Positions 1 to 64,000 of a stretch of 64,000 nt of DNA are shown piece by piece. This DNA is from Bugula neritina (taxonomy: Eukaryota; Bryozoa; Gymnolaemata; Cheilostomatida; Bugulidae): assembly GCA_964035545.1 (NCBI GenBank), contig OZ037773.1, forward strand, positions 9,339,751-9,403,750. The letters run 5' to 3'. The position numbers and the translations under genes are program-made. Every line of letters begins with the position of its first letter. The first letter of the stretch is position 1. Under the pieces are notes generated by a model that was given only the letters and a program-made list of their open reading frames with translations, ran no database searches and was not told the origin of the DNA.

Positions 1-110
1 CTAAAAAAGACAGCCATTTAGGAGGGCAACAACCAACTTTTGAGAGTTTTCCAACAAAGGGAAGACAGCTTTGCTTGTTTCCTAGATTCAGTCCTCCACA
101 AACTGAGTGA
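1..110 (+). CDS. 3' terminal exon of a caspase gene (gene 0), partial
   Basis: This is the last coding exon of a caspase-domain gene that starts outside the window. Reading from base 3, it matches the terminal exons of genes A, B and D, with the C-terminal p10 segment SFPTKGRQLCLFP and the ending FSPPQTE before TGA at 108-110. Caspase p10 subunits usually end with a similar basic-hydrophobic strand. A possible polyadenylation signal AATAAA lies at 446-451. It is the 3' neighbour copy of the tandem family, so at least one more ANK-caspase or caspase gene probably lies upstream. Whether that gene is intact cannot be judged from one exon. Confidence 0.8.
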   Translation, partial: KKDSHLGGQQPTFESFPTKGRQLCLFPRFSPPQTE

Positions 111-1546
111 AAGCTTAGAGAAAAAGTTTAGCAAATCTGTTTGCATAAACCAAACTGTTAAACTTGGAGTCACTTGCAGTAGTCTTCTTAATAAAAGTCA
201 GGTGTTTGCTGCCTGGCAGCTCATTTATTTTATTAACAATGACAATTATTTATTTAGTTTGCTTTAGTATTCACAGACTTTGTATTCTATTTCCACTTTG
301 TTTTGTTTGTTTATATTTGTTACTGTACATGCTGACAATGGCAGCAACAGTATTAGCTGCGTGTGCCTTAAATATCATATTGCATATAATATACTGTTTA
401 AAAACATATGTAGCTGGTTTCCTTTTTTATGCCCATGTAAGCCTTAATAAAGTTTTCCAAAACCTTTGATGGATGTTGTGAGAAAGTTTTAATAAATAAA
501 TATAATTTTTTTTTCAGTTGAATTTACAAAAACAAACTCAAAAAAAGAAAAATCAAATTTAATATGGGAAAAATACTTTGAATGATTTGTGAATAATTTT
601 GAGAACAGCATTGGTCACAGTGGCTATAGAGTTATCCCCCCTAACTAGAGCAAACGGCGAGAAGTTGCGATCTATATTAGAAAGATATCTCTCTGACTAT
701 AACATACATTATGTGATTATAATGTTATTTTGGAAGACAGAAAAGGCAGTTCCAAAAATTTTGTAGCCAAGTGCTATATAGTTACAAGGTACAACACATA
801 CTGTATATATAACATTTAGAAGCTGGGAAAACCTACTGAATACCCCGGGGAATATTGATAGAAAAATGATTTTGGAGCAGCTATTGGTAGCTGGAGGGAG
901 AAGTTGCAATTATAGAAACTGATACTACAGGCATGAAAGCCCTAGGGCAAACATAGAACATTAATTTACATAATACAGTCGATAATATTACCTCAGTGTA
1001 ACTGTAGTAATTATGAATGGAAAGTTTATGGCAAAGTGATCAGAAAAGCTATCATTTAGGGGTCATGTGAAGGGCTATTATAATATAACAGACTGTAAAC
1101 ATTGTTTCTGAGGTGAGAGGAGCCATTGAGATACAGTCGCTACTGCATTTCTTTTGAAAGTTTCTATAATAAGCTCTGCTGCTATAGAACAATGTCCAAT
1201 GAACAAACCAATATTCCATCTAGAAGAATCCCCACCATTAGACAACATAGATATCATTTATTAGGTTAAAGAATTGAAATATAATAAATGTGCATAATAA
1301 TAAATTAAGATATAATATTATTTTGAGTTTTAGCTATTAAATAATTTGATCTTAGAAATTAAAGTGATTGCAGAAGGGAAGGTTTTGGAAAGCCTCCCTT
1401 CTCAATATTGCTGCAGGTTAAATTTGAATTGTTATCCAGAGGGACCAAAATTACAATAACAATGCTTTATATTTTTCATAACTATTCCTACTGCATAGTG
1501 ATTTTATGTCATTAAATGAAAAACAAACATTTGAAAACTACTACAG
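111..1546. other. 3' UTR and intergenic DNA after gene 0
   Basis: No convincing exon is present. Bases 111-500 are the 3' UTR, closely similar to 8766-9150 and more distantly to 19539-19930 and 42164-42590. They include a short hydrophobic open frame starting at the ATG near 339. The stretch 690-1546 matches 11330-12181 in unit B, apart from the LINE inserted there. Confidence 0.6.
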
Positions 1547-2202
1547 GAAATGCTGGCTGTGGTGGAAAAAGAAACCCAGAGTTCAGAGTATGAGGCGTTA
1601 GGGGTCAGTGCCTTAGTAATCATGTCGCACGGAACCAAAAACCAATTTTATGGTACAGACAACTGTCCTGTTCAACTTACAGACCTGCTCTCTCTCATTT
1701 CTTCAAATGCATTTCAAGTGATGGCCAACAAGCCCAAAATTGTTGTTATCCAGGCAGACTATATAGAGGTATACTTGAAGCGCTAAAATAAAACTCAGGC
1801 AAATTTATAGCAGCTGTCCCTGTGAGAAACCCTTGATGGAAGAGGTTTTTGTTAAAGCTTGCTAAGAGCTTGAAGCGGTAGAATGCCAAACTATATATAA
1901 TGTAGGATTTTTATACTTTTAGAAAAGTTTGAAGCCTATTGATATATGCAGGATGCACCCTGAACAAATCTTTCCATCTTGGCCTAAATGTGCTATATTA
2001 AGCTAAAGTGCATATTATTTCTCCACACACCACTTACATGCATAACACATTTTTAATATATAGATATTATCTATTGTAGACTGCAGACCTGATTCTTTAG
2101 ATGAATCTCCAAATTCTAGTGAAGCAATTCAACAACCACATCTTTTGTCTGAAAAGAGCTTAGCTACAGACGACTTTTTTTTTGCAAGCAAGCTGGAATG
2201 GT
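1547..2202 (+). pseudogene. Orphan caspase remnant (p20 exon plus p20/p10 linker exon)
   Basis: Two exon-like blocks remain of a caspase from another subfamily than genes A, B and D. Block 1 (1547-1757) follows an AG acceptor and aligns with caspase exon 4. It keeps GVSALVIMSHG with the catalytic His and KPKIVVIQA, but where the active-site QACSG should be it reads QADYIE, so the catalytic Cys is gone and no donor follows. Block 2 (2080-2202) begins after TTGTAG, reads DCRPDSLDESPNSS and ends near TDDFFF, matching the exon that begins DRPDSLGF in gene A. No ANK, p20 N-terminal or p10 exons lie nearby. A diverged copy is at 12182-12840. This is a dead fragment that predates the tandem duplication. 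Confidence 0.8.
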
Positions 2203-3861: not shown

Positions 3862-6800
3862 ATGTCTGCCAATGAGTTACACACTCTGATAGATGATAGA
3901 GACAAGTTTGAAGAACAACTTCTAATGCTGCCTGTTGAAGACAGGTTTGAAGCTTTAAGAAAAGAGATTGGGGAAGAAAACCAAACAATATTGCACATTG
4001 CAACGACTGATGACCTAACACATATTCTAAAGTTAGTTATTGATAATGTGACAGAAGAGAGTCTGTTACAATTGCTGATGATTCAAGATGGAGATGGGAG
4101 TACACCAGTACACTATGCTGCCAGGGGTAATTATACAGGGCACATTCAGTGTATTGTAGAATCCACACCAGAAGAACATTTGTGCGAAGTGTTTGCTATG
4201 AAAAATGAATCTGGTAACACAGCTGTTCACTGGGCAGTTGGAAATAGTAACACAGATATGTTGCAGTGTCTGTTAAACTCTTTACCTTCAAACCAGATAG
4301 GTGAATTGCTCAACATACAGAATAACAGTGGCAACACAGCTTTACACACTGCAGCAGATAGTGATAGCGTCAAAATTATAAACATTTTGCTTAAGAGTCT
4401 GAAAGATCCAGCTGAGTTAGAGAGACTTTTACAAGCAGCAAATAAAGAAGGAATGACTGCTATTCATTACTTGGCAATTAATAACCAGTCTGGTATAGTA
4501 AAATGGATGACAAGCACTCTGGGGAAAAACATGCTAAAGAAACTTTTTAGCATACGAGCGAAAAATGGATTTACTGCAGTTCATTTTGCAGTCATTATTG
4601 GTCATACCAGCATAATGAGATGCGTAGCAGAAACATTGCCAGAATATATGCTATTGGAGCTGCTTAGTATCAAATGTAATGATGGTGAAACATGTGTTCA
4701 CTATGCAGCATTGGATGGTCACACAGATATGATAAAATTGATAATCGAAAAGTTGCCAGAATACATGTTATCGAGGCTGTTTGGTATTCAAACCAAAGAT
4801 GGCCTTACATGTTTTCACTATGCAACAATGAAAGGTCATGCTGAGATTGTCAACTGCATATCAAATTCATTAACAGCTAAGGCGTTGAAAGAAATACTCA
4901 CAAAAAAAAGTCGGCATGGAAGTACAGCAATACACTTTGCGGCTGAATCTGATAAAACGATGGTATTACGCCACATCCTTGAATCTCTTCAAAGAGATGA
5001 AACTTTAGAAATGATTTTTATGCATAACCAGTACAGAAACACACCATTTCAGTTGGCAGCGATGAGTGGTCACACCGACACTTTGAAAATTATGATCAGT
5101 TTTCTCTCAGTTGAAAATCTGTTGTCTTTGCTGGAAATAGCAGGCTTGTACTCTCTAACTCCTCTACACATTATAGCAGGAAATGGACATGCATTGGCGT
5201 TAGAAGTTATTTTCTGCCATTTACCTGTCGCTAGTTTATATGACATACTCACTAATAATAGAAATTGGTGTGGTGACACAGCAGCTCATATTGCAGCTGA
5301 AAAAGGTCATGTCAAAGTTTTAGAAGTGATTTTCAAAAACTTGTCATCAAAAGAAGCTTTACAGCTGCAAGAGATAAAAAATAATAATGAGAAAACGGCA
5401 CTAGACCTAGCAAAAATAGCTAAACACACAGAAACAGTAACTTTTATTAGGCAAAGTCAGAAAAAAGCGAAGAGAGCCTTCTCAGGTATGCCTATATAAT
5501 TGTAAAATATAAAATATGCTCTCTAAACGTATTATGACACATGTATGAGATATCTGACTGAAATATACAATGCTACCGGATTGTCTCAATCACAGAACTA
5601 TAACTCTGCACACAGTTTATTACTTTTATTTTTACTATATACATAGTTTTATTGTTGTTTTTGGTGAAAAAATTCTTTTGAAACAAAATTAAAGTTACAG
5701 TAAGGAAGTAGAATATAGTCATCTTCATATTCATAGGCTAATTGCTTATTAAAGGTTTAGTGTTTTTTAAAGCATTATACTTGTATAGTATATTATGTAA
5801 TTGTTTACCAGAACATTTAACACTTTTGAAATCACAATGAATTTGTAGATATGTTATTTTATTTGACAGCTTAAATGTAGTTTTTGCCTACCTATCTATA
5901 GCTTTTAAAATATTTCAGGTAAATTTTGAAGAAATTTCTAAGTTTTTTGTGTTAATGGTGGAATTAAATATATATAAAACATTTTTTTCCTAGCCTGGCG
6001 AAAGAATTGACCAATATTTTTCAATTTACAAAAATTCACTCATGCGTGTTTTAGAATGTGCAGCTAATCTAGGAGCTAAGTCAACAAACATACTTACTTG
6101 GCCAATCACAGATGAGGACATAGTTGAGAAATATTTGAACGAGTCCGATGTAAAGACAGACATGATCAACCTACCTTTGAGATCATGTACACAACCAAAC
6201 ACAGAAGATATGTACAACTGCAATGAGGTTTACAAATTGACTTGCATCAAATTTTATTGAAAAATGAATACTTTTTTTATTTATGCTTTACCACCATTAT
6301 TATATTTTTTTAATAAATTATGTGTCATTTAACAGTTAATGTAGTTTTATATAATATTGTAGTTGTAAACCACTTATATGACCACTATAACAATAAAACA
6401 CTGCATTTTATATTGAGCACGGTTTTGAAAAATAGCTGTGACCCGCATTTAAGTGGACAGTTTTTGTTATAATAACCCAACTGATAAATTTATATTCACT
6501 GTTTTTAGAAATATTACCAGATGACTTCTCCCACCAGAGGAAGGTGTCTTATCATCAACAATAGAGACTTTGAAGTTCCCTCTACACCAGACCAAGTGAA
6601 ACTTGATAAGCGACAAGGTTCAGATGTTGATGTGGCAAATGCTTTAAATGTCTTCACTCAGCTTAGTTTCATCTGCGAAGTTCACACTAACCTGACCAGT
6701 CAAGTAAGCTAAGTTCACACTAACCTCACCAGTAAGGTGTGGTAAGGGTTATAGCTAATTATTGATGCATAACTTCTATATATACCGAACAGATTAAGTT

Positions 6801-6909
6801 TAATTCTAATCAACGGTGAGAGTGAGGGGTCTTCAGGGGTACGAGTATTCCACCATTTTCTCTATGACCACTGCTAATACTAGTTGACTGTATATTAGTA
6901 TAATATATT

Positions 6910-6988
6910 TGCTTAATATAAAATTAACTTTTCAATAACTTTGTTATATTATAACAAACTTATTGAAAAGTTAATTTTATATTAAGCA
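6910..6988. repeat. Inverted repeat in intron 3 of gene A
   Basis: Two arms of about 34 bp (left from 6910, right to 6988) form a near-perfect hairpin around a short TATATTATAAC centre. The matching intron of gene B near 17646-17690 has only one arm, so the second arm is an inverted duplication specific to A. Confidence 0.75.
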
Positions 6989-7811
6989 AAGTTATTGCAA
7001 TGATAATTTTAGTGAAATCAAAAAAGCTACAATAATAAAGCAGTTTTTAAAAATGTTATCTTTTAAGTTCTATTTTGATCTATAATCTATTAAATGCTAT
7101 TATTAGCTCAAGATCATTTTTTTCATTCAAGAATGTGAACTGTATAGAAATATTTTGAATTTATAGGGAATGTTACATGTGTTGAACCGTGAAATACAAA
7201 ATCCAGAGCATGAGAGTTTTGGAGTTAGTGCCTTTATCATAATGACTCATGGGACTGAAAACTTTATCTAGGGTGCAGATAGTCGCCCTGTCAAACTGTC
7301 GGACATCTTGGATCTTATGTCTCCATATGCATTCAAAGCCATGGCTGGTAAACCTAAAATAGTTGTCATCCAGGCCTGTTCTGGTGGTGAGTTTTATCAG
7401 AACTAAAGAATCATTGAACTGGTCCTTTCTCAAATTTTAATTCTGGGTTGACTCTTACAGATCTATGGTTACATATCTACATTATATGTATATATGTACA
7501 TATATACTTATATATATACGTACATATATATACTTGCATATATACTTACATACATCCACATCTACATACACCTGTACTTTGTCTTGCAGACAGGCCAGAC
7601 AGTCTAGGCTTCTTTACAGAAGACTCTCCAAGCGGTGCTGGAGCAAATTTCAATGATGTCAAACAGAAATCTGATCCATTTCCTGGAGATCACTTGTCTA
7701 CTGATGATTTGTTCTTGTTGAGAGCCAGTTTTCTCAGTGAGTACAATCGCATCTGATGAATTTAACTAGTGCTGAATGCTCAACGTTAGATGATCAATAA
7801 TTAATAAAATA

Positions 7812-7815
<4 letters not shown>

Positions 7816-7892
<77 letters not shown>
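7816..7892. repeat. (AT)n microsatellite in intron 5 of gene A
   Basis: A pure AT dinucleotide run of about 38 units lies just upstream of the p10 exon acceptor. Gene B has no such run at the equivalent place and D has only scattered TATATA. Confidence 0.95.
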
Positions 7893-7895
<3 letters not shown>

Positions 7896-8278
7896 CTGTA
7901 TGTTTCATGTGTTGCAGGTTTCCGTTCAACAAGACATACTCGCCAGGGTAGTTGGATGATCAGAGCTCTAGTTTGTTCACTGTACAACCACAGCTGTGAT
8001 GAGGATATTGAGACTATCTTCAGAAAAGTGAGTGATATCTGTATTAATAAGTTTGTGATAGTTATACTAGCAGAGGGTTTAGCAATGCATCTTTTCTTTT
8101 AAACAAGTGAATGAATGTTGATTAGGCTGCATAGTTGCGGGTTTATTTGTATCCAAAATACATGATAGCTTCATATTATAACTTAAAGTAAACAATCATC
8201 TTTTAAGAACTCTAAGTAAAATTTTTGAGAGTGCTTTCTATACTTTTTACTATAACTGTAAAAAGGTAATATAATAAA

Positions 8279-8379
8279 GCAGTGATATATAACAAGTGCC
8301 AAATTCACATTCACTATAAGTTACTATAATATAGTAACTTATAGTAAATGTGAATTTGGCACTTGTTATATATCACTGC
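8279..8379. repeat. 101-bp near-perfect palindrome in intron 6 of gene A
   Basis: Arms of about 48 bp run from GCAGTGATATATAAC to its complement GTTATATATCACTGC with almost no spacer (centre near 8329). No equivalent palindrome is present in intron 6 of B or D. Confidence 0.85.
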
Positions 8380-8765
8380 TTTTCTTACTTTCCCATTGCA
8401 AAAGCAGCGACACTTTGTTATATGCATGCTATTCAATAGCCATGGTGCAGATCTAACCTTTAACAAATTATGTCAGCGTTTGACTCAATAGCAATGTTGA
8501 ATGAACTTTTACTTCCACCTGTAGTATGAAAAATTTCCTTATTATAATAACTAAATAGAGATGTAAAACCAAGCTTACATTTCATATTAGCAGAATAAAA
8601 TGAAATTATTCTTTACAGGTAAAAGATATTGTCAGAGCAAAGAGTATCAAAGCATCTAAAAAAGACATTTATTTAGGAGGACAACAACCGACTTTTGAGA
8701 GTTTTCCAACAAAGGGAAGACAACTTTGCTTGTTTCCTGGATTCAGTCCTGCACAAACTGAGTGA

Positions 8766-11349: not shown

Positions 11350-12181
11350 ATGTGATTGTAATGTTATTTTGGAAGACAGAAAAGGCAGTTCCAAAATGTT
11401 GTAGTCAAGTGCTATATAGTTACAAGGTAGCAATACATAATGTATAACATTTAGAAGCTGAGAAAAGCTATTGAATATTCCCGTGGAATATTTAAGAAGA
11501 AATGGTTTTAGAGCTGCTATTGGCAGCTGGAGAAAGAAGTTGCAGTAAAGACTACTAATATATACAAGCAATAAAGCCCGAGGGCAAACATAGAACATTA
11601 ATTTACATAATACAATCGAGATTAATATTACCTCAGTAACTGTAGCAATTATGAATGGAAAGTTTATGGCAGAGTGATCAGAAAAGCTATCATTTAGGGG
11701 TCATGTGAAGTGCTATTATAATATAACAGACTGTAAACATTGTTTCTGAGGTGAGAAGAGCCATTGAGCTGCTGTGGCTGTTGCATTTCTTTTGAAGGTT
11801 TCTATAATAAACTCTGCTGCTATGGAACAATGTCCAATGAACAAACCAATATTCCATCTAGAAGAATCCCCACCATTAGACAACACAGATATAATTTATT
11901 AGGTTAAAGAATTGAAATATAATAAATGTGCATAATATTAAATTAAAATATAATATTATTTTGAGTTTTAGCTATTAGATAATTTGATCTTAGAAATTAA
12001 AGTGATTGCAGAAGGGAAGGTTTTGGAAAGCCTCCCTTCTCAATATTGCTAGTTAAATTTGAATTGTTATCCAGAGTGACCAAAATTACAATAACAATAC
12101 TTTATATTTTTTATAACTATTCCTACTGCATAGTGATTTTATGCCATTAAATAAAAAACAAACATTTGAAAACTACTACAG
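11350..12181. other. Intergenic DNA, unit B
   Basis: Matches 710-1546 of unit A; no gene is seen. Short open frames here are not conserved with unit A. Confidence 0.5.
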
Positions 12182-12840
12182 GAAATGCTGGCTGTGGTGG
12201 AAAAAGAAACCCAGAGTTCAGAGTATGAAGCGTTAGGGGTCAGTGCCTTAGTAATCATGTCACACGGAACCAAGAACCAACTCTATGGTATAGACAACTG
12301 TCCGGTTCAACTTACAGACCTGCTCTCTCTCTCATTTCTTCAAATGCATTTCAAGTGATGGCCAACAAGCCCAAAATTGTTGTTATCCAGGCAGACTATA
12401 GAGGTATACTTGAAGCGCTAAAATAAAACTCAGGCAAATTTATAGCAGCTGTCCCTGTGAGAAACCCTTGATGGAAGAGGTTTTTGTTAAAGCTTGCTAA
12501 GAGCTTGAAGCGGTAGAATGCTAATTGCTATATATAATGTAGAATTTTTATACTTTTAGAAAAGTTTGAAACCTATTGATATATGTAGGATGCACCCTGA
12601 AAAAAACTTTCCATCTTGGCCTAAATGTGCTATATTAAGCTAAAGTGCATATTATTTTTCCACACACCACTTACACGCATGACACATTTTCAATATATTG
12701 ATATTATTTATTGTAGACTGCAGACCTGATGCTTTAGGGGAATCTCCAAATTCTAGTGAAGCAATTCAACAACCACATCTTTTGTCTGAAAAGAGCTTAG
12801 CTATACTGACGACTTTGTTTTTTTTGCAAACGAGCTGGAA
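12182..12840 (+). pseudogene. Orphan caspase remnant, unit B copy
   Basis: This is the same two caspase blocks as at 1547-2202. Block 1 (12182 to about 12393) keeps IMSHG but has an extra CT in a CT run near 12330, which breaks the frame. It again lacks the catalytic Cys after VVIQA. Block 2 (12717-12840) begins DCRPDALGESPNSS and is frame-broken near 12803-12810. Having more lesions than unit A fits continued neutral decay after duplication. Confidence 0.8.
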
Positions 12841-12949
12841 TAGTAAATTTACACCAGCTCACAACAGCATTGACCTATTTCAAGGTTTTGGTACACAACA
12901 GCACAGCTGCAGCAATATCTTATCCTTCTCTTTATTTCATTCTTTAATA

Positions 12950-14516: not shown

Positions 14517-17500
14517 ATGTCTGCCAATGAGTTACACACTCTGATAGATGATAGAGACAAGTTTGAAGAACAACTTTTAAAGCTGCCTGTTGAAGACAGG
14601 TTTGAAGCTTTAAGAAAAGAGATTGGGGAAGAAAACCGCACGATATTGCACATTGCAACGACTGATGACCTAACACATATTCTAAATTTAGTTATTGATA
14701 ATGTGACAGAAGAAAGTCTGTTAGAATTGCTGATGATTCAAGATGGAGATGGGAGTACACCAGTACACTATGCTGCCAGGGGTAACTATACAGGGCACAT
14801 CCAGTGTATTGTAGATTCTATACCAGAAGAACATTTGTGCGAAGTGTTTGCTATGAAGAATGAAACTGGAAACACAGCTATTCACTGGGCAGTTGGAAAT
14901 AGTAACACAGATATGTTGCAGTGTTTGTTCAACTCTTTACCTTCAAGCCAGAAAGGTGAATTACTCAACATACAAAATCTCAGTGGCAACACAGCTTTAC
15001 ACACTGCAGCAGATAATGAAAGTTTGGAAACTATAGAAATTTTGGTAAAGAGCCTGAAGGATGCAATTGATTTGGAAAGACTTTTAGAAACAACAAATGA
15101 AGAAAGAGAGACTGCTATTCATTACATGGTAACCAATAACCATTCTGATATAATAAAATGGATGACAAGCACTTTGGATATTAAATTGCTGGAGAGACTG
15201 CTTAGCATACAAGATCAATATGGATTTACTGCGGTTAACTATGCAGCTGTTAAAGGTCATACCAACATAATAGGGTGCGTAGCAGGAAAATTGTCAGAAT
15301 ATGCATTAGTTCAGATGTTTCGTATTAGATGTGATCATAGTCATACATGTGTTCACAAAGCAGCAATGGGTGGTCACACAGATATAATGAGATGCATAAC
15401 AGAAAATCTGTCAGAATCTATGCTATCTTGGTTGTTTGGAATTCAAACCAAAGATGGCTATACATGTTTTCACTATGCAGCAATGGAAGGTCATGCTGAG
15501 ATTGTCAACTGCATATCAAATTCATTAACAGCTAAAGCGTTGAAAGAAATACTCACAAAAAACAAAGTGAAAGTGGACGTACAGCTATGCACTTTGCAGC
15601 TGAATCTGATAAAAAAATGGTAGTAAGCTGCATCTTTGAATCTCTTCCAAGGGATAATATTTTGGAAATGATTTTTACCAAAGACAACAAAAACAACACA
15701 CCATTCCAGTTAGCAGCAAAAAGTGGTCACACTGACATTTTGAAACTTATGATCAGTTTTCTCTCAGTTGAACATCTGTTGAATTTATTGCAAATAAGAG
15801 ACTCAGACTTTCTAACACCACTACACATTATTGCAAAAAATGGACATGCGTTGGCATTAGAAGTAGTTTTCGGCCATTTGTCTGTCGATAGTTTATATGA
15901 CATACTAACTTATTATGGAATCTGGTGGAATGAAACAGCAGCTCATATTGCAGCCGAAAAAGGTCATGTCGAAATTTTGGAAGTGATTTTCAAAAACTTG
16001 TCATCAGAGCAAACTTTACAGCTGCTAGAAATAAAAAATAAATATGAACAAACAGCACTAGACTTGGCAAAAATAAATAAGCAGACAGAAACAATAACTT
16101 TCATTAAGAAAAGTCAGAAAAAAGCGGAAAAAGCAATGTCAGGTAAGGCATTTATAGTAAAATAATATAAAATATGTTTTGTAAATTTCAAAGCTTTTTT
16201 TATAAGCTTTCTTTGATTATCATTAAAGATATTTTTATGTAATAGTGAGTTGGTGATAGCATAGATATTATGCCACATGTATGAGATATGAGATAACAAC
16301 GCATACTGGTGAGGATTGTCTCAATCACAGAACTACTCTGCACACAGTTTATTACTTTTACTATACATAGTTTTATTGTTGTCTTTTGTGAATAAAATAT
16401 TTTCAAATAAGGTAAAGTACAGAAGTAAAATTGCTATCTTCACATCTATAGCCTAACTATTTATTAAAAGTTTAACATTTTAAAGCATTATACTTGTATT
16501 GTATATTATGCCATTGTTTACAAGAACATTTATAACTTTTCAAATCACAATTAATTTGCAAACATCGTATTTTATTTGACTACTGAAATATGATTGTTTG
16601 CCTTTATATCTTTACAAATATTTCAGGCAAATTATGAACAAATTTCTAAAGTTTTGGTTCAACTGTGAAACTACACAAATATAAAATATGTTTCGCCTAG
16701 CTTGGCAAAAATAATTTACCAATATTTTTTAATTTACTAAAATCTACAAATAATTGACATAATTTTTATAGACTGTATAGCTAGTCTAGGAGCTAATTTA
16801 AAAGATAGACCTGATTGGCCAATCACAGAAAAGGACATAGTTGAGAAATACTTGAATGAGTCAGATGTAGAGATAGACATGATCAACCTACCTCTAAGAG
16901 CATGTACACAACCAAACACAGAAGATATGTACAACTGCAAAGAGGTTTACATATTGAACTGCATTAATTTTTTTTTGAAAATTGAATACTTTTCTCAATC
17001 TCATTTTTAGAATCAGCATTAAAATTTAGCAAATACATTTAGTTTCTGACATGATATGATGGTGCAGTGCATTTAGACATAATGGAATATAAAAGCTACT
17101 TTGTTCAAGCTGTACAACTTTTGCTATAATAACCCAACCATAATAACGAATAATTTATCATTTCCGTGTTTTTAGAAGTATTACCAGATGACTTCTCCCA
17201 CCAGAGGAAGGTGTCTTATCATCAACAATAGAGACTTTGAAGTTCCCTCTGCACCAGACCAGGTAGAATTTGATAAGAGAGAAGGTTCAGATGTTGATGT
17301 GGCAAACATTGTCAATGTCTTTACTCAGCTTAGTTTCATCTGTGAAGTTCACACTAACCTCACCAGTAAGGTAAGCTAGGTTCACACTAACCTAACCGGT
17401 AAGATATTTTGAGGGTCTTAGATAATGAATCATACTAAACCTTTACTGTAAAGACTAAGTTTAGACAAAATATATCTTACATTCTTAAATTATATCAAAC

Positions 17501-19538
17501 TCAGCAAAATTTTGCATTTCTCAAGTTTTAAAGCACAAGAGGTGACCTTGTAATCAGTGGTCCAAGTGGGTGGTCGGCAAAAGTTTGGATACTACGCCAT
17601 TTTCTCTAGGCCTTGGCCACTGCTAATATATTAGCCCACTGCATGTATATAACAACTTTATTGAAAAATTATTTTTATATTGAGCAAAATTATTACAATG
17701 ATAATTTCAATGAAATAAAAAAGCTACAATAATGAAATAGTCTTCAAGAATGTTGTCTTTTAAGTTCTATTTAGATCTATTCTATTGCTATTATAAGCTC
17801 AAGGTCATCCTTTTTATTCTACATAGCGAGAATGTAGAATGTGTAGAAACATTTTGAATTTATAGGGAATGTTACGTGTGTTGAACCGTGAAATACAAAA
17901 TCCAGAGCATGAGAGGTTTGGAGTTAGTGCCTTTATCATAATGTCTCATGGAGCTGAGAACTTTATTTACGGTGCAGATAGTCGCCCAGTCAAACTGTCG
18001 GACATCTTGGATCTTATGTCTTCATATGCATTCAAAGCCATGGCTGGTAAACCTAAGATAGTTGTCATCCAGGCCTGTTCTGGTGGTGAGTTTTATCATT
18101 CAACTAATCCATTACTTTTTCTGGTATTGAGATGGAGTTGGCTGTTACATTTAATACCTATGTTTTCTTATATCTATTATACTTGTATATCTATACATAC
18201 ATTGGTAATTACGTGTTTACTTGTAATATTCCCAATATCTACATGCATGTATCATGTTGTAGACAGAAATGTATTTGCATTGATACTTATTATATATACT
18301 TCTATATATATACTTGTATATATACTTACATCTATACTTACACAATATATTATACTTACGTATATAATTATATATATATATTTACATACATCTGTACTTT
18401 GTCTTGTAGACAGACCAGACAGTCTTGGCTTCTATACAGAAGATTCTCCAAGCACTGCTGGAGCAACTCTCAGTGATAGCAAATGGAAATCTGATCCATT
18501 TCCTGGAGATTACTTGGCTACTGACGATTTGTTCTTGTTGAAAGCTAGTTTTCTCAGTAAGAACACAATATTATCTAATGAAATGAACTATAGTGAACAA
18601 ACTTTAACATTAGATAATTAATAATTATAATATAACAATATAGTCATCATATATACGTATGTATGCAACTGACTTTGTTATAATGGGCTTGTATAACCTT
18701 CTTGACTGACAATCTTTTAGGTAACACAGTCTGTATGTTCCATGTGCTGCAGGTTTCCGTTCAGCAAGACACACTCGTCAGGGTAGTTGGTTGATCAGAG
18801 CTTTAGTGTGTTCACTGTACAATCACAGCTGTGATGAAGATATTGAGACTATCTTCAGAAAGGTGAGTAATATCTGTACTAATATGTATACTAGCAGAAG
18901 GGCTGTTAAGTTTAGAGCTTATAGGTCATTCTCTTTCAATTCTTTTTAAAAAAAGGTGAATGAATGTTCATTATAGTGTGCAGTACGGCCTGCAGTGCAT
19001 TATCTGTATTATAGCAAACATGCACCAGAAATTAATAAAACTTAAGCTAAACAAATTTATTAAAAACTCTAAGCCAATTTTTTGAGAATATTTTCTATAT
19101 CATTCTTGCTACAGCTAAGAGTAGATAATTGTCACTAATATTGATATTGAGTTTACCACCTGCTTATATTAATACTATACTTTTCTTACTCTCACACTGC
19201 AACCAAGCAATACTTTGCTATACATGCTATCCAATAGCTGTAGTACAGATGTAACCTTCTAACAAATCTGAATGAACCCTTACTTCCAGCCGTAGTGTGA
19301 AAAACCTCATTATTATAATAAGTAAATAGAGATGTAAAACCAAGCTTATACATTTCGCATTAGCAGAATAACATGGAATTATTCTTTTTAGGTAAAAGAT
19401 ATTGTTAGAGCAAAGAGTATCAAAGCATCTAAAAAAGACAGCCATTTAGGAGGGCAACAACCAACTTCTAATTGTTTTCCAACAAAGGGAAGACAACTTT
19501 GTTTGTTTCCTAGGTTTAGTCCTGCTCAAACTGAGTGA
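14517..19538 (+). pseudogene. ANK-caspase gene B, frameshifted in the ANK exon
   Basis: Exons as in gene A: 14517-16142, 16772-16944, 17176-17370, 17866-18085, 18410-18556, 18753-18862, 19392-19538. All caspase exons have the same lengths as in A and read cleanly: RGRCLIINNRDF, the Arg in REGSDVD, IMSHG with Tyr where A has its stop, QACSG, RQGSWLI and GRQLCLFP. Exon 1 is 1626 bp against 1624 in A. A net +2 shift lies near 15562-15585, in an A-rich stretch that A reads as ILTKKSRHG. The first frame therefore ends at 15621-15623 (368 residues, about 8 ankyrin repeats), while repeats 9-13 continue in another frame from about 15587. The catalytic part is preserved but out of frame with the start. 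A polyadenylation signal is at 19903-19908. An internal start or an assembly error in the A-run could rescue it. Confidence 0.85.
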
Positions 19539-26800: not shown

Positions 26801-26904
26801 CTCACCATAATCAAGAAATATTCAAATTAGTGCTGAATTTTGATCCAGAAAAACGATCATCGGCTTTAGAATGGCTCAAATGTCTAAACAGCTACGAGTT
26901 GTAA
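20825..26904 (+). CDS. ANK-protein kinase fusion gene C1, intact
   Basis: Nine exons fit: 20825-21968, 22370-22477, 23081-23167, 23399-23567, 23770-23905, 24986-25084, 25327-25420, 26301-26402, 26705-26904, giving 712 residues. Exon 1 has about nine ankyrin repeats (for example GDTPLHIAA, GNTVVHIAA). Exons 2-3 are a Ser-rich linker with SSVSSGISSNAEAS. Exons 4-9 are a complete kinase domain of about 266 residues: glycine loop LGSGGQATV, VAIK Lys478, HMDIKPHN with catalytic Asp574 and Asn579, ADFG Asp591, GTPRYRAPELL and the subdomain IX DMWSMGVTA. ATP-dependent Ser/Thr (possibly TKL-like) phosphorylation is expected. HMD replaces HRD, so it is a non-RD kinase. Known ANK kinases such as RIPK4 and ANKK1 have the kinase first; here ANK is N-terminal. 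No signal peptide or membrane segment is seen. A polyadenylation signal is at 26985-26990. Exon 5's donor (GTTAGT) was chosen because it gives the family length of 136 bp. Confidence 0.9.
22741..22846. repeat. 11-bp minisatellite in intron 2 of C1
   Basis: Nine near-identical AGGTGTCCTGC units run in tandem, followed by a partial unit. C1' has only two units at 45400-45432, so the array has expanded or contracted since duplication. Confidence 0.95.
25906..26284. repeat. Minisatellite in intron 7 of C1
   Basis: Degenerate units of about 27-30 bp built from GTGACAGCTAGTGTGACAG and GTTGATGGGTA are repeated up to 20 bp before the exon 8 acceptor. The array in C1' (49316-49992) is about twice as long. 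Confidence 0.9.
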
Positions 26905-28057: not shown

Positions 28058-28629
28058 ATGTTTTATACAGCAACTGAGACCGTGAAACTTATTTTAAACT
28101 GCCTTCCTGCAGCTGACATGTGTAAAGTGACTTCAATTCCAAACAATAAAAGAAACACTGTCTTGTCTTGGGCTGCACAATGTGGACTTATGGATGTGTT
28201 AAGACTGCTTGTAGATATTATTCCACCAGAAGAGCTGTATTCACAAGTTCTGGTAATAGATAATGATGGTGACACAGTCATACATTGTGCTGCTTACGGG
28301 AACCAATCAGAAGCTGCTGTATACCTGCTTGACAAGTTGACGGAGAACCAAATTGGAGAAATATTTGAAATACAAAACAAAGAAGGTCACACTCTGATTG
28401 AATATGCAAAAAGTAAAGCTAACCATGAGTTTGTGACTCTAATTGAAGCTTATTTGAAAGATAGAGAAATTTTTCCAAAAGGTAAAGTTCAACAACCTGC
28501 TTTCAGCTTTGGTTGGAAACAATCAACATAATCTTAAAATTTTGAGCTTTTGCATTATGCATAGTATATTATATTAGTACTCTTGTACGTGTTGGAAGTA
28601 TGTAGGCCAAATTCTTGTACACATGCAGT

Positions 28630-46400: not shown

Positions 46401-49400
46401 AGTTTTTTGGTGTTGGGCAGCTGCCAGAAGGAATTGGTCTGGTGATGGAGCTTTGTGACTCGGATCTAAAAGCCATGTGTGTGAAAATAAAAGCTGCTTC
46501 TCATTTGAAAGTTAGTGAATCTTTAGCAGTTATATAATAATATTTAAGCTGATTCAGGCAATGGGCAAAACTTTTACAAATCAAACTACTTACTCTGCAC
46601 TTTCATTAACTTTTGCAGTTTCTTCTTTTACTTTTTCTATAACCCTAAATTGTATGTTATAATAAACACTAACAACTACTACGATGCAGGCATTGTAGAA
46701 AGTAAAATCAGTGGTTTAAAGCCCGTTTTTAGCAATAGCAATCACAAGTACTACAGTAGAATGAAAAAATTAAAAATTCTTGCAAAGAATAGTGTACGCT
46801 TTTCATTTCACAGGTTATCTATAGTTAATATCAAAACATGTGATTTATGCAAACACAGACAGGGATAATGTTTACACAAAATTTAAGATTAGAGATACTC
46901 CAGCACTTGCATTAAGCAAGCAGGCTAGACATTTGTTAGCAATGGTGATCCTAAACGTATGACAGATATATGTGTCAGTATTATCCTTAATGAACACTTT
47001 GAGTGGTTAGAGTATTAAATATTTATAAGTATGCTCATTAAAGACCGGTGTTGTATTGCAGTAAAGGGAAACAACTCCAAAGTTACGTTTTGCCAGTTCT
47101 AACTTCTAAGGGAAAACTCGAAAAGTTGCAATTAAGCATAAATTGATAAAATTCCTGTTTATAGCACATTTTTTAATGTATGCTAGAGGAATCTAATACC
47201 TTATTGGTGCATGTTCACAATCAAACACAAAATTAGCAACCCATCAGCAAAGAAGTTATAGCCGCATGCATGTGAGCTAGTGACCGGTGCTATCTTGGAA
47301 AGGGCATCAAGTTATAATTGCTCTTACACTCCTTAGAAACCCCTCGAATCAGATGCTGCCAGCTTTGTGAGAAGGTGCTGCTGTAGAAACTTGTTTCAAT
47401 TAGTTGGTAGAAGTTGCATAATTTATAAGGAAACAATCTTAATTTCTGCTGGTAATTTTAACTGACCTTTTTAATCTAGCAGGTCAACTTGTTTTAAAGT
47501 AATACAGTCTGTAATCACGGGCTTTCCATGTACCGATCTCAGATCGATCTCGCTGAGATCGATCTGAGAACTGTGCTCAGATCGACTGCTTTTCCATGAA
47601 AGTGTCAGATCGATCTTGCGAAGTTGCCTCCTCTTAAGTGAAGAGTACTTTAAAAGTATAATTTGTTCACCTATTTGAGTGATTAAAACTACTACTGTTG
47701 AAAACAAGATGGTCGTAGTCTAAAATTTATTTCCAGTTATAAACTTTACGCAGCAAAGCTTTCAGTGTATGGTAATTTGGCCAATTTAAAATAATTAATT
47801 TTAATTTTTTAGCTTGACAGCTTATATAAAATTAATGGCTGTCTTGCAGATTATTAATAAACTTACAGGACTGTTAGGCTTGAAATTATAAAGAAAATAG
47901 CTAATGAAACTAAGTTTTAATAGTGATTTAAATTCAATTTAAATTCTCCCATTTTTTACCTTCTACTGCATTATAATTGAGTTTTCTTAATCATTGTACT
48001 GAAAATCAAAGTTTTAGCATCTGAAAAGGTGGCTATCATAATTATTTAATACTTTGCCTTAGTAATTATCAATAAGTTATCATTTTTATTAGCAGACAAC
48101 ATTGTAGCGCGCAGTCTTTTTCTACTTCTCAGATCGATCTGGCGTCTTTCCATGGTCTTATTGACATGAGATCGATCTGAGTTCGAGCTCTACAGACCGA
48201 CCAGCTCAGATCGACAGAGATCGATTTTTGACGTCTTTCTATGGATCGATCTCGCTGAGATCGATCTGAGATCGGTACATGGAAAGCCGGTGAATGAATA
48301 TTGGTTAAATATTGGTTCACATTACTATTGTTTATATATATATAATTATATATATATACATTATAGGAAGAGGTGCTAAAGATAATAAAAGACTCTCTGA
48401 GTGGGTTGGTGTACCTCCACAGCAGGAACATGCTCCACATGGACATCAAACCACACAACATATTGGTGAGTAACCTTTCCTCTCAAATCTGGTTCCAGCA
48501 TTAACTAATTCAATCACTGAAGAATATCATTTTTATAAATCTTCATTGCTATCATTAGCAAAGTGGCATTTACAATATTTCTGATACTTATATTTACAAT
48601 TGCTCATAAAAACCTTTATAAATATTGTATTTGTATTGATCAATACATATAGTTCTTTACGCTTATTCATAACTTCTTTTAACTATTTAAAGCTCCTTTT
48701 TATAGATTCAATCTGGCAAAGGGAAATTGGCAGACTTTGGCTTAACTGACTTTGTTGGAAATTTCAATGACATGACAGTCACTTACCAAACATGGCAAGG
48801 TCAGTCTCAATGGTTTCTTGGTTTACATGAAGGCACATTTTTATTTCTTTTAATATCCTAGGAACAACAACTCATTGTCCAGGTCCTTTGCAGATGAAAC
48901 CACATTCACTATAAAAAATTGTCTGCATATGTATATTATCTATAAAATATTACATCATTTGTCTCTAACTTCATGCTTCAAGAGTTCCATTTAAGCTTTT
49001 TGAGAAAACTGCACAGCATTGGTGTTGTTGTGGAAAGCTGCTTCCAAAATCTGCCTCATATAAAACTTATTTTAATTGTAAAATGCATGTCATGGTTACA
49101 GTTACTTTACCTGTAGACATCTAAGTTAATTGATTAATTAGGTTAAATTCTAAGATGTACATTGGGGGGTATTTTATAGCCTGCTATAGTTATTCTACAT
49201 TGACCAAACAGTGTGAATCTTAATGAGGCAGAATACTGTCCTTTTGAGGGCTATTTAATGGTCACAGCCAATCAGTGTGAGAGTTGATTGATGCTACACA
49301 TAATCTATGTGATTGTGACAGTGTTAAAGTTGACAGTAGTGTGACAGTTGATGCGGGTAGTGACAGCTAGTGTGACAAATTAATAGTTGATGAGTAGTAA

Positions 49401-50615
49401 CAGCTAGTGTAACAGTTGATGTGTATAGTGACAGCTAGTGTGACAGTTGATGTGTATAGTGACAGCTAGTGTGACAGTTGATGTATATAGTGACAGCTAG
49501 TGTGACAGTTGATGTGTATAGTGACAGCTAGTGTGACAGTTGATGTGTATAGTGACAGCTAGTGTGACAGTTGATTGGTAGTGACAGTTAGTGTGACAGT
49601 TGATGGGTAGTGACAGCTAGTGTGACAGTTGGATGGGTAGTGACAGCTGGTGTGTCAGTTAGTATGATAGTTGATGGGTAGTGACAGCTAGTGTGACAGC
49701 TAGTGAGACAGCTAGTGTGACACATAATGGGTAGTGACAGCTAGTGTGACAGTTGATGTGTATATAGTGACAGCTACAGTGTGACAGTTGATGTATATAG
49801 TGACAGCTATAGTGTGACACATAATGGGTAGTGACGGCTATATAGTGTGACAGCTAGTGAGACAGCTAGTGAGACAGCTAGTGTGACAGTTGAATGGGTA
49901 GTGACAGTTAGTGTGACACATAGTGAGTAGTGACAGTTAGTGTGACACATAGTGAGTAGTGACAGTTAGTGTGACACATAGTGAGTAGTGACATGTGTTG
50001 ATTTTGCAGGAACTCCAAGATATAGAGCCCCGGAGCTGCTACACAGAAAAGCACCTTCAAAAGCAGCAGACATGTGGTCTATGGGTGTGACAGCACTGGA
50101 GGCTTTAACTGGTAGGTTTACATGATGCATTATGTAACCCTTAAACCTTCATAACCTGCAGGTTTGCTAATTGCACTAGCTGTATCAAGTTTGTCATATC
50201 TTATAAGTTGAATATCAGCTAAAAATTTCAAGAACTTTAACATTATGTTATTTGTAGCCCTCTTCGTAGAATATCTTTATTAGCAAATCAATGCAGAACT
50301 GCATATATAATTTTACATGTATCCAATAAAATTTAGCTCCACTATAAAATTATTTGCGTAAGCAAAAACTGTGTCTTAAATTTTTTCTAATTTACTCACA
50401 TCTTAAACCTTGTAGGAAGCTCATTTTACGAAAACATGGTGAGACATAGAAGATCATTTGTGCCGAAGGATATTTTGGAAACGAGACTACCCTCAGCCTT
50501 GCAGAGCTTGTCTCACTATAATCAAGAAATATTTAAATTGGTGCTGAATTTTGATCCAGAAAAACGATCATCGGCTTTAGAATGGCTAAAGTGTCTGAAC
50601 AGCTACGAGTTGTAA
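43450..50615 (+). CDS. ANK-protein kinase fusion gene C1', intact duplicate of C1
   Basis: Exons: 43450-44593, 45028-45135, 45683-45769, 46004-46172, 46375-46510, 48367-48465, 48706-48799, 50010-50111, 50416-50615. All lengths equal those of C1, giving 712 residues, and most residues are identical. It has about nine ankyrin repeats, the Ser-rich linker with SSGISSNAEAS and a complete kinase: LGSGGQATV, VAIK Lys478, HMDIKPHN Asp574, ADFG Asp591, RYRAPELL. Differences from C1 are scattered substitutions (for example MELCDSD for MEFCDSD, SSFYENMVRHRRS for SSCYKNMVKHKRS). Intron 5 is longer because of a 777-bp transposon, and intron 7 has a larger minisatellite. The splice sites are kept. It probably does the same job as C1; being duplicated and intact while C2 decays suggests dosage or redundancy. 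Confidence 0.9.
45400..45432. repeat. Short 11-bp minisatellite in intron 2 of C1'
   Basis: Two AGGTGTCCTGC-like units plus a partial one, at the place where C1 has nine. Confidence 0.85.
47516..48292. mobile_element. Non-autonomous DNA transposon (CAC...GTG ends) in intron 5 of C1'
   Basis: The 777-bp insertion is absent from the same intron of C1 (near 24931). The ends are inverted repeats of more than 40 bp starting CAC(G/C)GGCTTTCCATGTACC. The flanks are a 3-bp duplication AAT (47513-47515 and 48293-48295), and the empty site in C1 has a single AAT. Both subterminal parts carry many AGATCGATCT palindromes. There is no transposase. CAC/GTG ends with a 3-bp target duplication fit the CACTA (CMC/EnSpm) group; PIF/Harbinger also makes 3-bp duplications, so the superfamily is uncertain. 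Confidence 0.88.
49316..49992. repeat. Expanded minisatellite in intron 7 of C1'
   Basis: Homologous to 25906-26284 but about twice as long, with extra GTGTATAGTGACAGCTAGTGTGACAG-type units and a GACAGCTAGTGA sub-array. It ends shortly before the exon 8 acceptor. Confidence 0.9.
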
Positions 50616-52818: not shown

Positions 52819-58255
<5,437 letters not shown>

Positions 58256-60076: not shown

Positions 60077-61788
60077 ATGCCAACAAGTAAAAATTTTGAT
60101 AGACTTTTGGAGTTGATGGAGGAAAGAAATGAAGTTGGATTTAAGCAAAAACTAAGATCTCTGAGTCGTTCACAGCAATTAGATGTCCTTAAAGAAGGGA
60201 ATGATCAACAGGTCACTTTACTTGAATGTGCAGCAGGATGGGGTCTTACAGAGATAGTGAATGTTGCCATAGTTTCAGTACCAGCTAGTGAGCTTCATGA
60301 TATTCTAGCTATACAAGACGTTATTGGCTACACGCCACTCCATGCGGCAGCTTACTTTGGCCACACAGTCATAATGCAGCTTATAGCAAGTCTTCTGCTT
60401 ACAGCTGATCTGTATCGTCTCCTGAGAATAAAAAACAAGAATGGGATTACTGCCATACAATGTGGATTAAAGAACGGAAGAACTGAGACCGTGAAATTTC
60501 TTTTAAACTGCCTTTTTCCAGCTGACATGTGTAAAGTGATTTCAATTCCAGACAATAAAGGAAACACTGTCTTGTCTTGGGCTGCACAGTATGGACTTAT
60601 GGATGTGTTAAGACTGCTCATAGATATTATACCACCAGTAGAGCTGTATTCACATGTTCTGGTAACAGATAATGATGGTGACACAGTCATACATTGTGCT
60701 GCTTACGGGAACCAATCAGAAGCTGCTGTATACCTGCTTGACAAGTTGAAAAAAAGCCAGGTTGAAGAAATTTTAGAAATACAAAACAAAGAAAGTCACA
60801 CTTTGATTAAATATGCGAAGAGTAGAGGTTACCACGAGTTTGTGACTGTCGTTGGAGCCTATTTGAGAGATAGAAAAATCCTTCTAACTGGTAAAATTAA
60901 GCATGTTGTTGTAAGGTTTGATCACAAGTAATATTCAAATAATTAAATCTTTTTGTATATAGCATAATGATTTTTATGCACACAAACCATGCAACCATCA
61001 TCCATGCCTAATATTTGTTTACAGTGCTTTCAGTCGACTGCTTTTTTTAATAACATAATTTGATTGATGTTTTGTAAAAAAGTAAAAACATCAAGATTTG
61101 CTTTCTTTAACACGGCAATAAAAAAAGTTTTAGATTTTGGCAAATTTAAAAAGCCTATAGATGCACTTCACACTACTGCAATTTTGTGCTGTATTACTAT
61201 TTTATAGTTATATGTATTATTTCATCACATATAATTTTTATATTATACAATTACTACCATAAAACATTTTAAAGTATTTTTCTTCCAAACTGCTAAGAAA
61301 TTTTCAAACAAGTTCTATATTTATGTGTAAATAAGTTACTAATAGTTTATTAACCTTCACACAGTAATTTGAATAGTTATTTATTATTTTCAAATGTTTT
61401 TGTTGTTGAATAATTTTGCAGCAACTAAATCAGTTTATGCAAACTCTAATATACAAATAAACTTGTTTGCAATAATTTCAATCAACTAGTAAAAAGGGGT
61501 ATACTTGCCAATATTATCATTATTATCAAAATTTCGAAATTATTCTAAGTGCAATATATAGGGTTTATATATAATAATTATAAAATACTTTACTTGAAGC
61601 TACATACAATGCTACATTCCTTCTAAACATTAACTGGATTATTATAGTAACCCAAAGTAATCATTATATCTGCATAACAGATAAATCTAATTCTATTGTA
61701 GATAGAAAAGTGGATGCTGACTCACACCAAAACACAAGCTCTGCTGACAGTGGAGTATCACGTGATGTTGAGACCACTGTAGTAGACA
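60077..61788 (+). CDS. Gene E: ANK exon and linker exon, effector not in view
   Basis: Two exons are clear: 60077-60890 (814 bp, same length as C2' exon 1; six ankyrin repeats with AAGWGLTEIVNVAI, GNTVLSWAAQYG, GDTVIHCAAYGN) and 61702-61788 (87 bp linker with NTSSADSGVSRDVETT). Both end in phase 1. The linker is followed by a GTGAGT donor and an intron start resembling that of C2, but no caspase or kinase exon is found in the remaining 2.2 kb. In C2' and D the effector starts about 1.0-1.1 kb after the linker. E may continue beyond the window, may have lost its effector, or may be an ANK-only gene. The duplication model predicts that E keeps the effector that D's parent had before the crossover. 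Confidence 0.75.
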
Positions 61789-64000
61789 GTGAGTGTATAA
61801 TTACTTCTTTAATACTGCAGGTACTAGATAATATATATAACTGGTGGTGGTCTATATAGTGAACAGATTACAAGCTATTATTAATTAGACAATGTGCCAA
61901 GCCAGTGTTTGATATTGTTGAGCTATAGTATCAGAGCAAGCTAGCTTTCTTTCCTACATGACATATTATATATCTAATGGAAATGATAAAAAGTTATAAA
62001 ATACATTTGTAACGTTTAATTATAGGCATGTTTCACACATGCATATCACTTTTTATATAATTAGTCAATTTGTATGACTATAGCATCAAGTTTAGAATTT
62101 GACGTTCGCCTAGTTTGCAAAACTTAGGTTTGGGGTTGCATTATTTTGTTCAAATTGTTTCTGGACAGAGAGGATTTTTGTTTTTTATTACATAAACCAA
62201 CAGTAAACATGTTGTTCAACATGTGTACCAAGTGCTAATTGCTAAATTTGACCCAGCAGCAATATTCAGGCTTTCAAAAAGTCATGTAGCGCCGGTGCTA
62301 CACTGGGCTTTAGAGGCAACAATTCTTCCAATTTTCAGATCAATATTGCATTGATTGAAATTGCTATTTCAATCAATTTTGCAATCTATTTTTATTCAGT
62401 CACATTCAATCTAATTCACACATGTTACCCAGATAGTGAAACTAAATATTTTGAAGGTAGCCCTTGTACTAGCAAGATAAAAAACAGCAGAGCTCAAAAA
62501 TTCCACAACTTCATTGTTTAGTACTTTTGACGGATTATATCAAACCAAATAAATAATTTAAATTGGCTTTGCCATTTTTTTTAAATTTTAGACTGCCTTT
62601 TAATCAGTATTCAATATACTTTTTACCAGTTTTTGAGTGTAAAAAACCTAAACATAGATCTATGAAAATCTGAAGACGGCTGCATTCATTTTGTAAGAGC
62701 TTTTTGCCATCTATGCCAAAGGGACCGTCTCGCATTGCAAAACTGTTATCAAAAAAGCAAAAATATACCTGAACTTTATTGCCTAAATTAAATGAAGTTC
62801 CAATTTTGGAGCTGGAACATTAGTGTATATTCTCACTTTCATAAATATTATATAAAACTATTTGGGGCAACATTCGAAAACCATGAGTCATGTTTTATAG
62901 TATTGCGAAAACTCTTCAAACAATAGCTTTGGTAACAACACTTTACTTGCATAAAATCATAAGCAGCTAAAAAAAACAAAATATGTTTTAGGCAGACTGA
63001 GTTATAATAAACATCATGCTGCAGGCTACAAATCTACTAGATAGAAACAGCTGAATGATCTAGAATGTGAATTATTCAAACTGAAAGAGGAGAAACAAAA
63101 TTTTTTTGTTAGTGTGAATGCTAAACTGTGAGTTTGCTTCATTTTTAGTAAATCACAGCTAACATAAGAATATAGATTATAAAAAAACTAACAAAGATAA
63201 AGGCAGCATTATACATGTATTCAATATTCCAGAAACTGTGAGACACCATAAAACAATATCTGACATTGCTTTGCTTGATTTGTTAAACTTTGTTGATATT
63301 ACGAAAATTTCACAAGATAAGTTTGTTTGGGATAAGCTAATGTTAGCAACAGTGAGTGCATGTAGTATTGATGAACTAGCTCACAGTAATGGTATAAGGA
63401 TACAGCAAATATCAAATGTTAGATAAGCAAAGATCGAATTTTAAAGGGGGGGAGAGGGCTGGGTAAGCCTCATTAATGTATAATATATATTAGTTGTTTC
63501 TGGTATCTTATTTTACTCAGGGCACAATGTGACATCATTAATCATGGTAAATTTAAATCAGAATAATATCAATTACTTTTACACAACGAGCAAAAAATAT
63601 AATCAAAAGTTGAAATTGTGGCCTATATAAGATGCGAAACATGTGTGAATTGGTCATTTATAGTAGGTGTGACGGCGGATAATTGTTGCTGCATCAGCAC
63701 GGATGCTGTTTGGCACGGATGCCTATGTATTGTGATTCACTTAATGAAAGGTGAATGGATGGAGGACACGATGCAGGCCACAACTCTATTTTTTGTCTAT
63801 CACCAACAGTATATTTTCTAAGTTAGACTTAGACTTGAGCTCACATTCAGACTTAGACTCATATTCATACTCAAGCTTGAACTTGAACTCATACTCATAC
63901 TGTAACCTATAACCATGAAAATTACAAAAATATTGTTAACTTAACATTAATTACATAGCTGATAAAATATTTAGTTAATAAAGTTCAAAACAAAAGATAA
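61789..64000. other. Downstream of E: long intron or intergenic DNA
   Basis: AT-rich, with no caspase or kinase motif on either strand. It contains a 12-bp-arm hairpin at 62350-62377, a degenerate array of ACTCATACT/CTTGAACTT-like words at about 63820-63900, and one unrecognised open frame listed separately. Confidence 0.5.
63163..63426 (+). other. Unrecognised open frame, 87 codons
   Basis: The frame is open from after a stop at 63160-63162 to TAG at about 63424. It reads through DIALLDLLNFVDITK and LMLATVSACSIDELA, with amphipathic character but no family I recognise. An AG at 63231-63232 could be an acceptor, but joining it to E's linker in phase 1 gives an immediate stop. It could be an exon of another gene, a transposon remnant or chance. 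Confidence 0.2.

Follow-up and report, generated by a model that had tools for sequence, protein, structure and literature searches.

Initiator caspases are normally gathered by CARD or DED prodomains, ankyrin (ANK) repeats are general binding modules, and in RIPK4 and ANKK1 a Ser/Thr kinase comes first and the ANK repeats last. Here we describe a tandem gene cluster of the bryozoan Bugula neritina, in which an exon of ANK repeats comes first and is followed by the exons of either a caspase or a protein kinase. The order seen in RIPK4 and ANKK1 is reversed in all five kinase units of this cluster. An earlier reading of the DNA (the original prediction) had taken the kinase-first order to be the known arrangement of ANK kinases, which is right for these two proteins. 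It was incomplete, however, as TNNI3K is described as coiled coil, ANK repeats and kinase (PMC8232738, available in part) and so resembles the cluster kinase units in having ANK ahead of the kinase; it is set apart by the coiled coil at its N terminus and a Ser-rich domain at its C terminus, whereas the kinase models of the cluster (units G3 and G7, below) stop right after the kinase. Because ANK-first kinases were already known, part of the surprise of the original prediction falls away. On the caspase side, the LRR-caspase and TNFR-caspase hybrids of amphioxus have a sensor joined directly to the caspase, an arrangement called a shortcut or direct link; they differ in carrying LRR or TNFR sensors, and the word ankyrin is absent from that paper (PMC2575513), and its available portions show no kinase counterpart.

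The stretch analysed, referred to below as the window, comprises 64,000 nucleotides of B. neritina chromosome 9 (C9, OZ037773.1; 9.34–9.40 Mb). The genome searched was tzBugNeri2.1, at 215.8 Mb and 295 contigs (216.00 Mb and 320 scaffolds in the available part of its publication, PMC11480708). The window holds eight ANK exons (G1–G8), all on the + strand and head to tail, followed by caspase exons after G1, G2 and G5 and by kinase exons after G3, G4, G6 and G7; the kinase of G8 starts 676 bases beyond the window end. With the flanks added, the full cluster covers C9:9319461-9416527, about 97 kb on one strand, and contains 12 ANK units, numbered so that U4–U11 are G1–G8, with U1–U3 upstream and U12 downstream of the window. 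Seven units have a caspase (U1–U5, U8, U12) and five a kinase (U6, U7, U9–U11), and there is one additional kinase end fragment. ANK and effector are separated by a short linker, which occurs in three types: type A, made of two small exons, type B and type C. The claim of at least eight head-to-tail genes built on one ANK–linker–effector plan is therefore borne out, the cluster being even longer than supposed, and one kind of ANK first exon does serve caspase or kinase; the eight units are not all intact, however, G1, G2, G4 and G8 being damaged. At the level of the DNA, the observation of an ANK-first caspase/kinase cluster is confirmed.

Exon cores were set by hand and joined by means of a simple score for donors and acceptors. 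This gave full splice models for G3 (712 aa), G5 (602 aa excluding the tail exon) and G7 (577 aa) and partial models for G1 and G2; the remaining units are represented by their open exon cores. The domain search proposed with the original prediction returned from Pfam Ank_2 across the three full models (E values 7.9e-20, 3.5e-25 and 1.2e-27), Pkinase on G3 (5.9e-49) and G7 (3.1e-45), and Peptidase_C14 (PF00656) on G5 (7.1e-31). G5 is thus modelled as ANK plus caspase, G3 and G7 as ANK plus kinase. CARD and DED were not reported by Pfam on G5 at E <= 0.001, and ANK repeats stand in the place of an initiator-caspase prodomain. The G5 caspase has p20 and p10 parts, the His, the Cys and the substrate-pocket Arg, and its alignment to caspase-3 in the PDB spans HG, QAC.G and the R..GSW region; matches among solved structures include caspase-3, CED-3 and caspase-8, and the caspase motifs of the cluster are RG, the His, QACSG and R..GSW of p10. 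The kinase motifs are GSGG, VAIK, DIKPHN, DFG and APE, with HRD reading HMD, and both G3 and G7 possess the Gly loop, the VAIK Lys, the catalytic Asp and Asn, DFG and APE. Among the best 60 of 2695 PDB matches to the G7 kinase, chains of EGFR, ULK3, STK3/4, PHO85 and RAF occur at similar scores, so these matches leave the kinase group unassigned, and no TNNI3K chain appears by name among the same 60. An Rfam search of the window gave no match at gathering scores.

The effectors had been called interchangeable, and the DNA of G5 records one such exchange. Over 36,722–38,314 this unit aligns to kinase units (75–85%), and starting at 39,437 it aligns to caspase units (70–85%); among matches of at least 60 bases none of these kinase or caspase units spans the exchange point. 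U12 is co-linear with G5 across it and repeats the arrangement at 85% DNA identity, placing the exchanged form twice in the cluster. In the ANK tree, G5, U12 and P0001, an ANK-caspase protein annotated in another B. neritina assembly, fall with the kinase-linked U7, U10, U11 and P0003 (97/97), and these four kinase-linked members make up a separate subgroup (92/96); U1 was entered in the wrong frame and its placement in that tree is void. In the caspase tree, G5 and U12 group with the other cluster caspases, the distant U1 excepted (94/93). A single exchange, in either direction, explains these data if it took place within the intron that follows linker B and preceded the duplication that gave G5 and U12; it probably also predates the split of the two sequenced B. 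neritina lineages. The trees give no firm order among G5, U12 and P0001. The idea that G5 consists of two damaged genes that merely happen to be neighbours was considered and rejected, given the co-linear U12 and the P0001 pairing in the other assembly.

A more basic alternative, which the original prediction had itself named, is that ANK open reading frames (ORFs) and effector exons are separate adjacent genes. Judged on predicted splicing, this is very improbable, because the ANK ORFs have phase-1 donors and because ANK-caspase and ANK-kinase pairs are each met again at loci unlinked to the cluster. Within the last 150 nt, the best donor is in phase 1 in 26 of 27 ANK ORFs (12 in the cluster and 15 elsewhere, the latter giving 14/15), and in 17 of the 27 the donor scores more than 3.9, the value that marks the 90th percentile in a sample of 2,000 random stretches. 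If phases were equally likely, the binomial p of this excess would be 7e-12 for all 27 and 2e-6 for those off the cluster, the copies being related and not independent; five further ANK-bearing ORFs were left out of the test (the L010 piece, part of U1; L023:8869; L024:1-1938; L024:7867; L025:483-1793). Off-cluster scans scored 143 of 386 caspase and 143 of 317 kinase candidates. Among the best 11 caspase loci outside the cluster, eight (L023–L028, L036, L037) are preceded on the same strand by a large ANK ORF, and an ANK ORF lies upstream in all seven off-cluster kinase loci sharing the exon pattern. One of the former, L023, yields a stop-free ANK-caspase model of 1,281 aa; automatic exon joining gave no model for L024, L025, L026 and L028, partly for lack of a linker core. 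ANK and effector are also joined in annotations of the 2020 B. neritina assembly, namely P0001 (ANK and caspase, 443 aa) and P0003 (ANK and kinase, 778 aa; for both, longest contig 254,062 bases), and P0004 (ANK and kinase, the kinase portion short). Genes of that assembly were predicted de novo and verified by transcriptome data, according to the available part of its description (PMC7576161).

Several observations pull the other way. The best donor of L027 is in phase 0, and three of the 11 caspase loci (L033–L035) are without ANK within 3.6–3.8 kb upstream; upstream of L035 are stretches that look, on visual inspection, like the linker and the end of the prodomain in a CARD-caspase of the bryozoan Watersipora. 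The donor by which linker C is predicted to splice to the first of the caspase exons is weak (GTTTAC, score -4.2) in G1, G2 and G5, P0001 as annotated omits the exon bearing the His and Cys, and the short piece of DNA read behind one ANK ORF of an array on C3 showed no recognisable effector. The remaining predicted junctions are mostly high-scoring, and P0001 is annotated with the linker C to caspase join too. The P0003 annotation resembles two copies fused.

Half of the units in the cluster are damaged or altered, which also counts against a working gene family. Open exon cores look intact in caspase units U3, U8 and U12 and kinase units U6, U9 and U10 (within the window, G3, G5, G6 and G7); the other six (U1, U2, U4, U5, U7, U11) have lesions or have lost a catalytic residue. 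In G1 an in-frame TAG (7269-7271) interrupts the caspase exon after the catalytic His and before the Cys; in G2 the frame of the ANK exon shifts by two bases near 15,560, adjoining a poly-A run, and the caspase retains both His and Cys; G4 has an ANK exon without its N-terminal half and APE changed to APG; and in G8 kinase exon 3 has lost 8 bases. In U2 there is a 4-base insertion in a caspase exon, and in U1 the ANK frame is open and the catalytic Cys codon reads Asp. G1, by its stop, and U1 and the orphan exon G0, by the change of Cys to Asp, fall short of a caspase. Such lesions, together with the large repeat arrays of the window and its ORFs that read as retroelements, would suit a neutral expansion, with the majority of copies being duplicates in decay and the swap of effectors a chance event of no functional consequence. 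We consider this improbable: the intact units keep full catalytic motifs, the exchanged form is present twice and its pairing is annotated in the other assembly, and omega of the effectors lies well below 1. The values (NG86) are 0.39–0.61 for ANK exons (10 pairs), 0.21–0.37 for caspase exons (8 pairs) and 0.11–0.25 for kinase exons (5 pairs, silent sites being saturated in one). These 23 pairs were chosen for the comparison; several of them include damaged units, and split exons are represented by their first piece only. The values indicate that the effectors are under purifying selection.

We propose that the cluster encodes a tandem family of ANK sensors and effectors acting without death-fold prodomains, a reading that we regard as about evenly balanced between true and false. 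The first coding exon is the single ANK exon, joined by a predicted phase-1 splice, via one or two linker exons, to the caspase or kinase. The family grows by duplication, and at least once a 5' half of kinase-type ANK and linker met a caspase 3' half through an intron, the reading frame staying open across the exchange because the junctions are phase 1. The ANK solenoid would bind a variable partner, and binding would gather the effectors, leading to caspase self-activation and self-cleavage or to kinase trans-phosphorylation by a route that bypasses CARD/DED adaptors, perhaps in intracellular defence or self/non-self control. At ANK positions 2, 3, 5, 13 and 14, which, following designed-ankyrin work, we take to be contact positions, omega is 0.98, compared with 0.55 at the other positions from 1 to 24 and 0.45 at positions 25–40; the excess is in replacements (permutation p 0.0015) and the silent rate is not raised (p 0.53). 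This is consistent with a diversifying surface, and also fits a relaxed constraint on exposed residues. Nothing found here ties the genes to immunity.

The ANK repeats might instead be a scaffold or localisation module for ordinary effectors, without any sensor, used in development or in remodelling such as polypide regression or metamorphosis. The general binding role of ANK repeats would allow this. TNNI3K, an ANK-first kinase, works in heart muscle (PMC8232738), and the caspase expansion of Mytilus is tied to larval metamorphosis (PMC10967218), as far as the available parts of these two papers go. We think the scaffold role unlikely, since a tandem array that gains and loses genes and retains damaged ones, together with an excess of replacements at contact positions, would be more typical of recognition families.

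Table 1. Features of the ANK-caspase and ANK-kinase units in the window (window numbering).
Feature	Position	Strand	Remarks
Tail (last) exon of upstream ANK-caspase unit U3	21..107	+	GGQQPT..FPTK motif
G0 orphan caspase p20 exon	1535..1756	+	catalytic Cys codon = Asp (IQAD); no ANK exon of its own
G1 ANK exon, 541 aa	3862..5485	+	donor TCAG/GTATGC, phase 1
G1 linker C and caspase region	6055..8762	+	
G1 linker C/caspase exon cores	6055-6227, 6509-6703, 7167-7385, 7592-7736, 7918-8030, tail 8613-8762	+	
G0b second orphan caspase exon remnant	12170..12393	+	frame disrupted; no ANK exon of its own
G2 ANK exon	14517..16142	+	donor TCAG/GTAAGG, phase 1
G2 linker C and caspase region	16772..19535	+	
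G2 linker C/caspase exons	16772-16944, 17176-17370, 17866-18085, 18410-18556, 18753-~18865, tail 19392-19535	+	
G3 ANK exon, 381 aa	20825..21968	+	donor AAAG/GTGAGA, phase 1
G3 linker A and kinase region	22370..26904	+	linker A 22370-22477, 23081-23167
G3 kinase exons	23399-23567, 23770-23905, 24986-25084, 25327-25420, 26301-26402, 26705-26904	+	
G4 ANK exon	28076..28480	+	N-terminally truncated
G4 linker B and kinase region	29527..35195	+	linker B 29527-29637, kinase exons 30993-35195
G5 ANK exon, 275 aa	37067..37892	+	clade otherwise kinase-linked
G5 linker B exon	38220..38306	+	start ambiguous: 38169, 38202, 38220 or 38229
Exchange-point interval	38315..39436	+	kinase-unit match ends 38314, caspase-unit match begins 39437
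G5 linker C and caspase region	39391..42160	+	linker C start 39391 or ~39438, end 39611
G5 caspase exons	39924-40118, 40653-40872, 41149-41286, 41491-~41609, tail 42011-42160	+	retains His and Cys
G6 ANK exon, 381 aa	43450..44592	+	93% identical to G3
G6 linker A and kinase exon cores	45027..50612	+	
G7 ANK exon, 271 aa	52819..53632	+	donor AAAG/GTAAGG, phase 1
G7 linker B and kinase region	54676..58252	+	linker B 54676-54789
G7 kinase exons	55767-55935, 56062-56197, 56771-56869, 57023-57116, 57816-57917, 58050-58252	+	
G8 ANK exon	60077..60890	+	kinase exons at 64676-67577, beyond the window
G8 linker B exon core	61716..61787	+	

Other features of the cluster can be noted briefly. Between the units, three minus-strand ORFs (2508-2978, 9527-11404 and 12940-13626) resemble, by eye, retroelement reverse transcriptases or pieces of them, and between kinase exons 2 and 3 of G4 an array of about 285 copies of the 7-bp unit TTGTGCC (31616-33607, 99% matches) is open in all six frames. 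The linker B exons (29527-29637, 38234-38302, 54678-54788, 61716-61787) have a Ser-rich ADSG(I/V)(S/T)-like motif, common to the kinase units and the caspase chimeras. A DSG(I/V)S-like motif was followed as a phospho-degron lead and dropped with no claim made, the pattern being found, among the seven off-cluster kinase loci L016–L022, only in L020 (SDSGVS, reverse-strand 3010). The Cys-to-Asp caspase subtype comprises one full unit, U1, and three fragments (G0, G0b and C9:9332723), with Asp where the codon is readable (U1, G0). Inactive caspase homologues serve as decoys elsewhere, and by analogy the U1-type proteins could act in this way. Some kinase matches of the genome search lie on small contigs (C15, C58, C131, C261) and have in-frame TAA or TAG and hardly any TGA (one, in C15), a pattern as would be expected if these contigs came from a ciliate-like cobiont with another genetic code.

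Caspases are numerous in this genome, with at least 176 exon matches to PF00656 (150 of 295 candidates scored), and exon-wise matches number four for CARD, three for DED and 11 for Death, DED and Death occurring together at C1:6357006-6357620. The ANK cluster is one part of this larger caspase repertoire with few CARD and DED. A second caspase family on C1, C5, C6 and C7 (for example, L029–L032) has a long LRR/Roc/COR-like ORF upstream. Measured against the Pfam cut-offs, L029 has COR-A above and Roc below, L030 and L032 have Roc above and COR-A below, and L031 has Roc above and is without COR-A. Of the COR-A matches, 21 of 23 have a same-strand caspase exon 2.0–3.4 kb downstream, all 23 having been compared with 36 caspase places from the PF00656 matches listed; the best donors at the four Roc/COR loci are in phase 1 in three cases, which carries little weight. 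In Owenia, protein P0122 holds Roc, COR-A and caspase within a single chain. Long ANK ORFs that share the repeat type of the cluster form an array on C3 (4479417-4508263, L042). Neither a caspase nor a kinase could be made out by eye in one short stretch of it, and this array perhaps carries another effector or none. A wider view, which we put forward tentatively and think rather doubtful, is that B. neritina has largely swapped death-fold prodomains for plug-in sensor exons (ANK and, separately, LRR-Roc-COR), with the same kind of ANK exon placed before kinases, and that intronic recombination in tandem clusters makes new pairs, giving a changing repertoire of single proteins that recognise and then kill or signal, possibly in self/non-self recognition between colonies.

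Among the matches listed from the protein collection, B. neritina supplies the nearest proteins, joined by Watersipora in the case of the caspase. One further protein, P0051 (477 aa, from ENA), has ANK and kinase (best 120 of 495 matches, 7,999 candidates scored). The protein-collection searches returned no ANK-caspase from other bryozoans, the only bryozoan match from outside Bugula being the CARD-caspase P0002 of Watersipora subatra. Its caspase exons, linker C-like segment and C-terminal tail match the Bugula genes, and it differs in having a CARD prodomain (precomputed Pfam) in place of the ANK repeats; the shared segment and tail suggest a deeper change of prodomain. None of the literature found in a search for ANK-caspase proteins was recognised as describing them, and the phrase ankyrin-caspase was met only as part of the name of a UPA-CARD domain, in the available part of PMC13429693. 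The word ankyrin is absent from the main texts of the bivalve caspase papers examined, and the literature listed on bryozoan caspases and B. neritina immunity showed no description of such genes. The Roc/COR-caspases of B. neritina and Owenia are alike in that another module precedes the caspase exons, and differ in that the module is LRR and a Roc-COR GTPase, not ANK. Exon shuffling in candidate immune receptors is described for the ROCO genes of brown algae, in the available part of PMC11378527, which differ in organism and in their ROCO module. If the proposed reading is true, one recognition module would drive death or signalling without CARD/DED adaptors, with the exchange recorded in DNA, and the cluster would offer, for this colonial animal and for Bryozoa, concrete candidate genes through which immunity or the telling of self from non-self could be studied.

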